DNA of 64,000 nucleotides. Source: a bacterium (GTDB lineage: Bacteria; Pseudomonadota; Alphaproteobacteria; Rhodobacterales; Rhodobacteraceae). Location of the stretch: contig WGOE01000006.1 of NCBI GenBank assembly GCA_016124195.1, forward strand, positions 124,001-188,000, in the 5' to 3' direction. The notes under the pieces were generated by a model. That model was not told where the DNA came from, did no database searches, and was given only the letters and a program-made list of their open reading frames with translations. A program made the position numbers and the translations under genes. Below, piece after piece: positions 31,276-33,851 of this stretch (the first letter of the stretch is position 1; every line of letters begins with the position of its first letter).

Positions 31276-31482
31276 ATGTACAAATCTCTGGTAATTCTGG
31301 CTTTCCTGTCTGCGACGGCCTTGGCCGGCTGCTCTGGCCGCGGGGTCAGTGCCAACTGCGCCGGACTTGGCGTCGTGGGCGGCACGGCGGTCGGTGCGGC
31401 CACGCATAACGATCTGGCCACCAGCGCCATCGCCGGCGGCGTGCTGGGCGCCATAGCGGGCGATCAGGGCCTGTGCCGCTGA
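31276..31482 (+). CDS. Small lipoprotein with glycine-zipper-like segment
   Basis: 68 residues. The signal peptide ends in the lipobox LAGC (cysteine at position 19), so the mature protein is about 50 residues attached to a membrane. GLGVVGGTAVGAATHN and SAIAGGVLGAIAGDQG form glycine-zipper-type repeats like those of small outer-membrane lipoproteins. Function unknown. A 13-bp perfect hairpin follows 37 bases after the stop. Confidence 0.8.
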   Translation: MYKSLVILAFLSATALAGCSGRGVSANCAGLGVVGGTAVGAATHNDLATSAIAGGVLGAIAGDQGLCR

Positions 31483-31519
31483 TCCGGCCGCGTGCCAGTC
31501 AAGACCTGACCTGACATCG

Positions 31520-31548
31520 CTCCATCCGGGCTTGCAGCCCGGATGGAG
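31520..31548. terminator. 13-bp perfect hairpin between lipoprotein gene and sRNA array
   Basis: CTCCATCCGGGCT (31520-31532), loop TGC, and its exact complement (31536-31548). No T-run follows on either strand. It may protect the lipoprotein mRNA 3' end or back up the sRNA array terminator. Confidence 0.5.
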
Positions 31549-31601
31549 GGGTCAAGGCCATCAATCTGTTTACGCACCCCGAATGACACGAACCAAACGA
31601 C

Positions 31602-31628
31602 AAAGGCCCGCTGTGGAAGCGGGCCTTT
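31602..31628 (-). terminator. Terminator of the sRNA array transcript
   Basis: AAAGGCCCGC and its exact complement (31619-31628, 31602-31611 in minus-strand order) with a 7-base loop. The T-run is short on the minus strand (three T, then GTCGTTT), so termination may be leaky or the hairpin may mainly block exonucleases. Confidence 0.7.
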
Positions 31629-31717
31629 TCGTCATGGTGAAGGGAGGTGCGGCAACCTCAGGGAGGAGGTTGAGGTTGCCGCTGGTCCGCAGGCCCAGGG
31701 AGGAGGAGGGGCCCGTC
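31602..31717 (-). ncRNA. CcsR-like sRNA unit 6 with array terminator
   Basis: Hairpin k (31709-31715/31690-31696, 7 bp, one G.U) and hairpin l (31671-31682/31649-31660, 12 bp perfect) are followed by a 10-bp terminator hairpin at 31602-31628 that ends the whole transcript. Confidence 0.78.
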
Positions 31718-31727
31718 GTACACCGCA

Positions 31728-31812
31728 GGGGCCGCATGGCCCCGAATTCCGCGACGACACCGGGAGGAGGAGGTGCCGCCGCAATCGCCTTGGCCCGGGA
31801 GGAGGGCGCCGG
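31728..31812 (-). ncRNA. CcsR-like sRNA unit 5
   Basis: Hairpin i around 31797-31805 has only a 4-bp stem that partly sequesters the motif; hairpin j (31772-31782/31751-31761) is 11 bp with two G.U pairs. The closing stem is 6 bp at 31728-31743. Confidence 0.72.
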
Positions 31813-31820
31813 CTATCTCT

Positions 31821-31915
31821 GGGCCGCTTGGCCCGAATGGAAGTGCGGCGACCTCAGGGAGGAGGTTGAGGTCGCCGCTGGTCCGCGAGCCCCAGGGAGG
31901 AGGAGGGGGCCCGTC
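31821..31915 (-). ncRNA. CcsR-like sRNA unit 4
   Basis: Hairpin g (31906-31913/31886-31893, 8 bp, one G.U) and hairpin h (31867-31878/31845-31856, 12 bp perfect) both present CCUCCUCCC; a 5-bp GC stem at 31821-31834 closes the unit. It is a near copy of unit 6, about 197 bp away, with a compensated base change in the long stem (CAAC/GTTG against CGAC/GTCG). Confidence 0.75.
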
Positions 31916-31926
31916 GTACACCGTTT

Positions 31927-32012
31927 GGGCCGCTTGGCCCGGAATTCCGCGACGACACCGGGAGGAGGAGGTGCCGCCGCTTGTGCCTTCACCCGGGGAG
32001 GAGGTCGGGGTC
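31927..32012 (-). ncRNA. CcsR-like sRNA unit 3
   Basis: Hairpin e around 31996-32004 has a short bulged stem; hairpin f (31970-31980/31949-31959) is 11 bp with two G.U pairs. The closing stem GGGCC/GGCCC at 31927-31940 has a four-base loop. It closely resembles unit 5, about 198 bp away. Confidence 0.75.
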
Positions 32013-32025
32013 CGGCGCAGGTCTT

Positions 32026-32120
32026 CGGGGCAAGGCCCCGTGTCGAGTGGCGGCAACCTCAGGGAGGAGGTTGAGGTTGCCGCCGGTCCGTCAGCCCCGA
32101 GGGAGGAGTTCAGGGCCACC
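32026..32120 (-). ncRNA. CcsR-like sRNA unit 2
   Basis: Hairpin c (32110-32116/32094-32100, 7 bp, one U.G) carries the only variant motif, ACUCCUCCC; hairpin d has a perfect 13-bp stem (32072-32084/32049-32061) with CCUCCUCCC. A 6-bp stem at 32035-32040/32026-32031 closes the unit. It is separated from unit 1 by the longest spacer in the array. Confidence 0.75.
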
Positions 32121-32140
32121 GAAAGTCGTCTTGGTCAGCC

Positions 32141-32247
32141 CGACCGGGATCAGCGCCCCGATCGGCGGTGTAGAAAAGCGACGACGCCAGGGAGGAGGAC
32201 AGCGTCGCCGCACTTGACCAGAACCTGCAGGGAGGAGGTTGCAGGGG
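32141..32247 (-). ncRNA. CcsR-like sRNA unit 1
   Basis: In RNA order, hairpin a (stem 32240-32245/32224-32229, 6 bp perfect) and hairpin b (32202-32211/32178-32187, 10 bp with one G.U) present CCUCCUCCC in their loops; an 8-bp stem at 32157-32164/32141-32148 (one U.G) closes the unit. Its 5' end lies 15 bases beyond the ccaF1-like stop, so it is presumably cut from a joint transcript. The loop sequence is complementary to Shine-Dalgarno sequences. Ends are approximate. Confidence 0.75.
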
Positions 32248-32262
32248 AGGGCAAGATTGATC

Positions 32263-32478
32263 TCAGGCCTTGTAGGCCGCCTCGCGGGCCACTTCGGCGA
32301 TATTGGTGCGGTTCAGGCCAAGGTCCGCCAGATCGCGGTCCGAGAGCGACTGAAGCTCGTAAAGCGTCTGGTTGTAGACGCGGCGACGCTCCACCAGACC
32401 GAAGACCACTTTCACCACGGCGGCGAAACGATCAGAAAAGCTCACCTGGGCGGAGCGGGAAGAGTTCACATATGCCAT
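32263..32478 (-). CDS. ccaF1: DUF1127 small RNA-binding protein, CcaF1-like
   Basis: 71 residues, the same length I recall for R. sphaeroides CcaF1. The C-terminal half is a typical DUF1127 helix pair (VERRRVYNQTLYELQSLSDR, then DLADLGLNRTNIAEVAREAA); the N-terminal half is a short amphipathic stretch. CcaF1 binds RNA and affects maturation and turnover of the CcsR sRNAs encoded downstream, and the same order is seen here. The start at 32478 has GAGG 7 bases upstream. Coexpression from the promoter at 32551-32581 is expected. The name is given from domain, length and context together. Confidence 0.88.
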   Translation of the reverse strand: MAYVNSSRSAQVSFSDRFAAVVKVVFGLVERRRVYNQTLYELQSLSDRDLADLGLNRTNIAEVAREAAYKA

Positions 32479-32550
32479 TTTCAGCCTCACATTCTTTCCT
32501 TGGCGGCGTTGCCCTTGGCCCGTCTGCCCTGGGTCCGTCGCTGTTAGGGC

Positions 32551-32581
32551 AAACATGGGGCAATTGCTGCGACTGCACAAT
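32551..32581 (-). promoter_or_regulatory. Candidate RpoH-type promoter for ccaF1 and the sRNA array
   Basis: On the minus strand ATTGTGC (32581-32575) and CCCCATGTTT (32560-32551) are 14 bases apart, close to the heat-shock sigma pattern CTTG...CCCCAT. The start of transcription would be about 65 bases before the gene. In R. sphaeroides the locus depends on RpoHI/RpoHII, which supports the reading; the -35 match is partial. Confidence 0.45.
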
Positions 32582-32747
32582 CCGCCCAGCGATCATTGCT
32601 GCCATGCAGCATGCGCATGGCTGACGTTCACGAAATCTTTAGATTAATCAAGATATTCGATGAAATTTTGAGCGTTTGGTCAACGCGGCCTTGCCCTTTG
32701 CGCGAAAGCGGAACACCCTGCTGAAGCCTTGGGCAAAGGAGAAAGAC

Positions 32748-33851
32748 ATGTCCCCCTCGCGCGATGACGTTGTAGCCGTGTTGGCCCGGATTGCCACGCC
32801 GGGCGGTGGTACTCTGGTGAGCGATGATTTGATTCGTGCCCTGGCGATCGAGAGCGGAATTGTGCGTTTCGTGATCGAAGCGCCAAATCCGGACGCCGCG
32901 CGGGCGCTGGCGTCGGCGCATCAGGCGGCCGAGGCGGCCTTGAAGGCGATGCCGGGCGTCACAAGCGTTCAGGCCGTGATGACGGCGCATGGGCCCGCGG
33001 TGTCGCGGCCCCAGACGCCACGGCCCGAATCTGGAGGCGAGCCGCCCTCGTTGAAGATCGGCGGCCATCCGACGCCGCATCAGGGCGGGCCGGCGCGCGT
33101 GTCGGGCATCGACCGGATCATCGCCGTAGCCTCTGGCAAGGGGGGGGTGGGCAAATCGACCGTGGCCTCCAACCTCGCCGTGGCGCTGGCGCGGCAGGGG
33201 CGCCGGGTCGGTCTTTTGGATGCCGATATCTATGGCCCCTCGCAGCCGCGGATGATGGGGGTCAGCAAACGTCCAGCCTCGCCCGATGGCAAGACCATAG
33301 AGCCTCTGGTGGCGCATGGCGTGACGATGATGTCGATCGGCCTGATGCTGAAAGAGGACGAGGCGGTGATCTGGCGCGGCCCGATGCTGATGGGGGCGCT
33401 GCAACAATTGATCAACCAGGTGGCCTGGGGCCGGCTGGATGTTCTGGTGATCGACCTGCCGCCGGGCACGGGCGATGTGCAGCTGACCCTGGCGCAGCGG
33501 ACGCATCTGACCGGGGCGCTTGTGGTCTCGACCCCGCAGGACGTGGCGCTTTTGGATGCGCGGAAAGCGCTCGACATGTTCGTCAAGCTCAAGGTGCCGG
33601 TTCTGGGTCTGATCGAGAACATGTCGACCTATATCTGCCCGAACTGTGGCCATGAAGCGCATATCTTCGGCCACGGCGGGGTGGCGGCCGAGGCGTTGAA
33701 GCTGAACCTGCCGTTCCTTGGCGAGTTGCCGCTGAACCTTGAAGTGCGGATGGCGGGCGATGCGGGCACGCCGATTGCGGCGACCGACAGTGCGCTGGCC
33801 GAACCCTATCTTCGGCTGGCACGTCGGCTGATCGACGGCGGCATGGGCTGA
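32748..33851 (+). CDS. mrp: Mrp/ApbC-family iron-sulfur cluster carrier ATPase
   Basis: 367 residues. An N-terminal DUF59/MIP18-like domain (about 1-85) precedes the P-loop NTPase: deviant Walker [33 protein letters not shown], and CxxC in [16 protein letters not shown], which bridges a 4Fe-4S cluster in the dimer. It delivers Fe-S clusters to apoproteins in the cytosol. AAAGGAG lies before the ATG. It is divergent from ccaF1. Confidence 0.94.

Follow-up and report, generated by a model that had tools for sequence, protein, structure and literature searches.

A ccaF1-CcsR-type array of six anti-Shine-Dalgarno hairpin units in the Rhodobacteraceae: labile array size and a conserved upstream element

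Introduction

What kind of locus is a minus-strand string of six paired hairpins with an anti-Shine-Dalgarno (anti-SD) motif in the loops, placed behind a small DUF1127 gene in a genome of the Rhodobacteraceae, and does its length set it apart from its relatives? The window, by which we mean the whole stretch of 64,000 nucleotides analyzed here, had been annotated in a preliminary description that read this locus as an enlarged form of the ccaF1-CcsR locus of Rhodobacter (Cereibacter) sphaeroides. For that species, the available part of one report describes ccaF1 together with four CcsR RNAs, an RpoHI/II promoter and processing by RNase E (PMC10253847).

Results and Discussion

Loop Motif, Layout and Predicted Folding

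Six motif pairs lie on the minus strand between 31661 and 32238, as initially described, with eleven exact copies of CCUCCUCCC and one ACUCCUCCC, which differs in the first base; in the letters of the minus strand, CCTCCTCCC occurs exactly eleven times and ACTCCTCCC once. The spacings between motif starts are 40, 89, 39, 66, 36, 65, 38, 60, 35, 64 and 37 bases. A first-order random model of the 661-base array yielded on average 0.11 exact copies per draw and no more than 2 in any of 2000 draws, compared with the eleven observed. Across the whole 64 kb, the motif count with one mismatch was not above chance (27 versus 28.7 in shuffles), thus the notable features are the clustering of the copies and their strand.

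The 71-aa DUF1127 gene directly upstream on the same strand was confirmed by Pfam (PF06568), and its distance to the array, given earlier as 15 bases, was recounted, the first motif hairpin beginning 17 nt past the stop codon (Table 1). The earlier placement of the motif copies in hairpin loops was borne out by a structure check, in which 11 of the 12 copies were wholly unpaired in the predicted fold; in the ninth copy (31805) two of the nine bases were paired, with a mean unpaired probability of 0.78. Compared with shuffled sequences, Units 1, 2, 4 and 6 fold much more stably (z -4.6 to -5.9), and Units 3 and 5, whose first hairpins have 4-bp stems, fold weakly. All five motif-free stems reported between the units are present (z -1.5 to -3.5). 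Of the terminator proposed at the end of the array, the strong last stem stood, whereas a consensus scan for an intrinsic terminator was negative, probably because the T-run of this stem is poor. Units 3 and 4 on the one hand and Units 5 and 6 on the other form duplicate blocks ~198 bp apart (88% identity over 92 nt).

Table 1. Features of the locus and its surroundings, in window positions.
Feature	Position	Strand	Evidence and remarks
ccaF1-like gene, 71 aa, DUF1127 (PF06568)	32263..32478	-	Pfam E 1.2e-10
Unit 1, two anti-SD hairpins	32173..32256	-	Rfam CcsR1 40.5 bits, E 2.2e-8; fold z -5.9
Spacer stem 1, motif-free	32128..32172	-	fold z -1.5
Unit 2, first loop ACUCCUCCC	32045..32125	-	Rfam CcsR1 41.9 bits, E 8.6e-9
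Spacer stem 2, motif-free	32018..32043	-	fold z -3.0
Unit 3	31944..32016	-	Rfam CcsR1 36.9 bits, E 2.7e-7; fold z -1.3
Spacer stem 3, motif-free	31922..31942	-	fold z -2.4
Unit 4	31840..31921	-	Rfam CcsR1 59.2 bits, E 6.8e-14
Spacer stem 4, motif-free	31818..31838	-	fold z -2.7
Unit 5	31746..31817	-	Rfam CcsR1 30.4 bits, E 2.3e-5; fold z -1.4; 82% identity to Unit 3
Spacer stem 5, motif-free	31725..31744	-	fold z -3.5
Unit 6	31644..31724	-	Rfam CcsR1 51 bits, E 1.7e-11; 92% identity to Unit 4
Terminator-like stem, weak T-run	31601..31640	-	fold z -5.9; consensus scan negative
RpoH-like promoter region TTGTGCA...CCCCATGTT, upstream of ccaF1	32552..32580	-	aligned with relatives
Composite upstream element, inverted repeat GCCATGC-N7-GCATGGC into AGCAATG	32594..32621	-	conserved; overlaps CTGC-N3-GCAG
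mrp-type ATPase ORF, divergent	32676..33851	+	synteny anchor, outside the system

Identity of the Locus

The identification of the array as a ccaF1-CcsR ("cuckoo RNA", CIN1) locus in the preliminary description is supported by the Pfam match, by Rfam matches below the cut-off on all six units, by synteny with mrp and by an alignable RpoH-like promoter region. In a permissive search of 751 bases (31550-32300), the Rfam CcsR1 model (RF02791) matched 6 of 6 units at 30.4-59.2 bits (E 2e-5 to 7e-14). The curated gathering cut-off of RF02791 is 65.3 bits, which none of the six units reaches since they have diverged from CcsR1, and with curated cut-offs Rfam gave no match anywhere in the window. A covariance-model search of relatives had been suggested earlier as a means to compare unit counts; it was run on four other loci, and the counts came from motif counting instead. 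One unit each passes the CcsR1 cut-off in Cereibacter johrii and C. ovatus, and no unit does in Stagnihabitans tardus (L066) or in locus L048. The curated cut-off can thus miss plain CcsR members, given that none of six units passes here and a single unit passes in each of two of the four other loci.

For the neighborhood, C. johrii was used as a proxy for R. sphaeroides in a set of 80 named loci. This set consists of the best 80 loci from a CcaF1-like protein search in named genomes, which makes the sample lean to close relatives, and C. johrii and Nioella nitratireducens are each present twice. The ORF at the divergent end of the locus, which we take from its sequence to be of mrp type, has a homologue upstream on the opposite strand in 77 of the 80, those of C. 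johrii and C. ovatus among them (in L138 it is ~1 kb away), and this shared neighbor points to the window locus being ccaF1-CcsR. An mrp homologue is lacking in three loci, namely L134, L144 and L112; in the last, only 447 bp of DNA precede the gene. Locus L066 and genome G392, which is listed under the window's genus, share an identical 1.2-kb stretch, so the window falls in the genus of Stagnihabitans tardus.

The closest known system is therefore that of CcsR1-4 and ccaF1 in R. sphaeroides (RF02791), with which the window shares the 71-aa DUF1127 gene, tandem units with CCUCCUCCC loops, the RpoH-like promoter and, as judged from the C. johrii proxy, the divergent mrp. It differs in having six units and not four, the block of Units 3 and 4 being duplicated as Units 5 and 6. 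Hairpins, a fixed loop motif, free stem sequence and a DUF1127 neighbor are also shared with the cuckoo RNA family or CIN1, as far as papers citing its description (Reinkensmeier and Giegerich, 2015) report it; compared with the family motif of 2-4 hairpins given in these partial accounts, the window array has more loops and nothing different in kind. The stems follow the same pattern. Among 606 motif copies in the best 80 named loci, 79% have flanking arms with at least six contiguous pairs, compared with 21% when the right arms are re-dealt, and the copies have 334 distinct 9-nt left flanks; pairing is preserved as the sequence changes. It is by such kept pairing with changing stem sequence that the accessible portion of PMC4504443 defines the cuckoo family.

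The anti-SD loop motif of the window is identical to that of alpha-r14 (NfeR1) of rhizobia (RF02344). In the available text on NfeR1 (PMC10746234), a single RNA, transcribed from an RpoD promoter of its own, carries three loops, whereas the window has a 3′ UTR array. The ar14 model reached at best 42.2 of the 58.8 bits needed in 31550-32300, and was weaker than CcsR1 wherever both matched. A consensus scan of 31400-32800 found no promoter of the sigma-70 type. Membership in alpha-r14 was rejected on these two grounds.

A further reading takes the repeats as coding repeats of a protein on the opposite strand, where ORFs extend up to 283 aa. Long open frames do occur on both strands, although GC-rich DNA often yields such frames by chance. 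The complementary arms, the Rfam matches and the loop spacings, which vary freely across loci, make a coding origin barely conceivable, and it was discarded on the pairing of the arms and the matches to CcsR1.

Predicted Mode of Action and Targets

The best explanation overall, to which we assign a probability of roughly 80%, is a six-unit ccaF1-CcsR operon that yields anti-SD sRNAs which block translation starts. It builds on the motif, loops, complementary arms, gene neighborhood, conserved upstream region and duplication observed here. With co-transcription and stress control carried over from R. sphaeroides, an RpoH-type stress promoter would produce a single transcript, and, with processing likewise carried over, RNase E, with CcaF1 as a modulator, would release short RNAs from its 3′ UTR. 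The two CCUCCUCCC loops of each mature RNA would then pair with purine-rich ribosome-binding sites of predicted targets, and this pairing would block translation or destabilize the mRNA. Since tandem duplication adds and removes units, their number would presumably tune the dose and would not define a new function.

The hairpins might instead work mainly in cis: as a folded 3′ UTR they would shield the ccaF1 mRNA or time its decay, or soak up CcaF1, with loops that bind protein and are not antisense. Such a role would suit the location of the motif almost exclusively behind the DUF1127 gene and on its strand; among the best 80 named loci, 608 exact copies follow the ccaF1-like gene on its own strand, with a single copy at another place on this strand and a single copy on the opposite one. 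It would also suit the effect of CcaF1 on CcsR processing that the available part of PMC10253847 gives for R. sphaeroides. However, the 9-nt loop is held while its flanks diverge, as expected for pairing to a shared target sequence, and the CcsR RNAs of R. sphaeroides undergo processing and have the FlhR mRNA as a target, according to the accessible text of PMC8307010. We consider a cis role quite unlikely.

The sRNAs could also be global decoys, which would mimic the anti-SD end of the 16S rRNA and damp all mRNAs with a strong SD and not a specific set. The loop includes CCUCCU, the core of the anti-SD, and arrays can exceed 20 loops. However, the genome of the window contains only 19 sites of the form GGGAGGAG-N3-12-ATG, and none for the reversed pattern. 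In addition, the loop is longer than CCUCCU and the exact CCUCCUCCC recurs, which suggests a narrower target set. This makes a global decoy unlikely. Strong SD sequences would in any case be expected ahead of start codons, and a control set of SD sites was examined for comparison. Of the 19 target sites, three have peptides that are too short, 16 were scanned and 13 have a Pfam family; six of these 13 predicted target proteins are transport parts (five solute-binding proteins and one DctQ). Among the 21 control sites, 19 were scanned (two were excluded with peptides of 9 and 2 residues) and 16 have a Pfam family, two of them solute-binding proteins. The apparent enrichment of transport among the predicted targets is borderline, with a p of 0.055, or of 0.018 without likely internal starts, an exclusion chosen after seeing the data. 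ABC transporters are predicted as targets of NfeR1, which has the same loop motif, in the available part of PMC10746234.

Array Size Across Relatives

The preliminary description further held that the locus had been enlarged from four to six sRNAs. This finds no support, whether as a direction of change or as something that distinguishes the array, because array size is labile in the family and in the genus; four units in Cereibacter need not be the ancestral state. That six units would be exceptional is ruled out by loop counts in the named loci, in the wider order and in the window's own genus, with relatives carrying 1 to 23 loops. Among the 71 of the best 80 named loci with more than 2 kb of room, loops per locus range from 0 to 16 with a median of 8, and 14 of the 71 have at least 11 loops and 12 have at least 12. 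The two zero-loop loci, L134 and L144, both lack mrp and may be paralogues, and the range at the mrp locus proper is 1 to 16. The C. johrii array has eight loops. A separate pattern search across a sample of 390 genomes from the order found paired motifs in 352, and the longest single arrays among them have 20 (L047) and 23 (L048) loops.

In the window's genus, a paired match was found in 14 of 15 further genomes, the exception being G399 (79% complete). The 13 arrays that start behind a DUF1127 match contain 4 to 13 loops with one mismatch allowed; the L279 array extends to a sequence end and the L283 array stops 147 bases short of one, and L285 has two loops without a DUF1127 match in front. 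The genome of the genus with the most similar CcaF1 (G397, 82%) has twelve loops in six units. Units 1 and 2 of the window correspond to its first and second units, Units 3 and 5 to its third and fifth, and Units 4 and 6 to its fourth and sixth. G391 has eleven loops and five recognized units. As judged from these comparisons, the locus grows and shrinks through tandem duplication, and six units is an ordinary state. CcsR arrays are thus a fast-changing copy-number trait whose chromosomal site is largely fixed, so the question of sRNA dose is testable with natural or trimmed arrays.

Several observations concern arrays of other relatives. In the long arrays of L048 (genome G152, 23 loops), L047 (G015, 20), L049 (G222, 17), L037 (G236, 16) and L053 (G144, 15), the loops are mostly 35-54 nt apart, which leaves scant room for motif-free spacer stems. 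In the genus g8, read by eye, none of eight genomes (G007, G009, G029, G069, G079, G119, G167 and G244) has the paired motif, suggesting loss or decay of the array across a genus. Three-loop arrays at L021, L023 and L025 have the DUF1127 match downstream of the loops instead of upstream. Paired motifs occur at more than one place in G078 (L010, contigs C2 and C27) and G039 (L045, contigs C4, C5 and C11), so some relatives may have additional loci of the cuckoo type.

Promoter, Composite Upstream Element and PhaR

An RpoH-like region, TTGTGCA...CCCATGTT, is alignable between the window and 22 chosen relatives, and 79 of the best 80 named loci have TTGTGCA-N2-3-YGCAG no more than 170 bp upstream. 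A -10 of the CNCAT type follows 19-22 bases after TTGTGCA in 56 of the 77 loci measured; that of the window resembles the RpoH -10 of E. coli (CCCCAT). The label "RpoH-like" draws on the RpoH consensus and on the statement for R. sphaeroides in the available part of PMC10253847.

Upstream of the promoter, most loci have a composite element, GCCATGC-N7-GCATGGC followed by AGCATTG. By the box measure it usually stands 28-29 bp before TTGTGCA (68 of 77 loci), with ties settled in favor of 29 bp, which inflates the 29-bp peak. The 17-base composite pattern has one exact occurrence in the genome, one further occurrence at one mismatch and 54 at two; the reversed control occurs once in all. We regard the element as real, and it is new here. 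Part of it reads as CTGC-N3-GCAG, the site of the PHB sensor PhaR, which is thereby a candidate regulator.

Regulation of the element by PhaR is a possibility to which several comparisons point. With up to one mismatch, CTGC-N3-GCAG is found 70-170 bp upstream in 77 of the best 80 named loci, compared with 5.8% of 1600 control windows, and exact boxes lie within 250 bp in 51 of the 80. The PhaR site of R. sphaeroides is given as CTGCNNNGCAG in the accessible part of PMC12542648. PhaR is encoded in the window's own genome, where exact boxes lie ~0.65 kb upstream of phaR, a place where a phasin gene would be expected, and one exact box lies between two divergent genes, which by eye we take to be phaC and phaZ. 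This last box shares CTGCATAGCAG with some ccaF1 boxes. We built a matrix from 28 boxes upstream of phaR, with a box no farther than 1 kb away in 16 of 21 family-level phaR loci (of the other five, one had only 523 bp of room); nine phaR loci of other families were scanned and kept out of the matrix, and one of them had a box. With this matrix, the ccaF1 upstream region scores above the 99th percentile of controls in 73 of the best 80 named loci.

Several findings count against PhaR. The third spacer base is a pyrimidine in 28 of 28 boxes upstream of phaR and mostly G or A in the ccaF1 boxes. The same stretch is equally readable as GCCATGC-N7-GCATGGC, and its left half drifts in more distant loci such as L106, L112 and L133. 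The composite pattern is exact only once in the genome, and a CTGC-N3-GCAG box is also found in the array-less Nioella locus L144. The distance of the box to mrp is also rather constant, thus mrp may be the regulated gene instead. Among the top-ranked literature matches, with subscription journals mostly outside reach, none reported on array length or on control by PhaR of either CcsR or CcaF1.

The conserved upstream element could link the array to another signal. Specifically, a composite operator in mostly fixed register with the RpoH-like promoter may feed a second signal into the array, possibly the carbon-storage state, through PhaR or an unrecognized regulator, which would make the array more than a stress product; we regard this reading as tentative and rather unlikely. 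If true, anti-SD RNAs would lower transporter synthesis according to storage state, with array length setting the gain. As a minor observation, the ccaF1-like gene at L144 (contig 9 of Nioella nitratireducens SSW136), which has neither an array nor mrp beside it, is nonetheless preceded by both the TTGTGCA element and the box.
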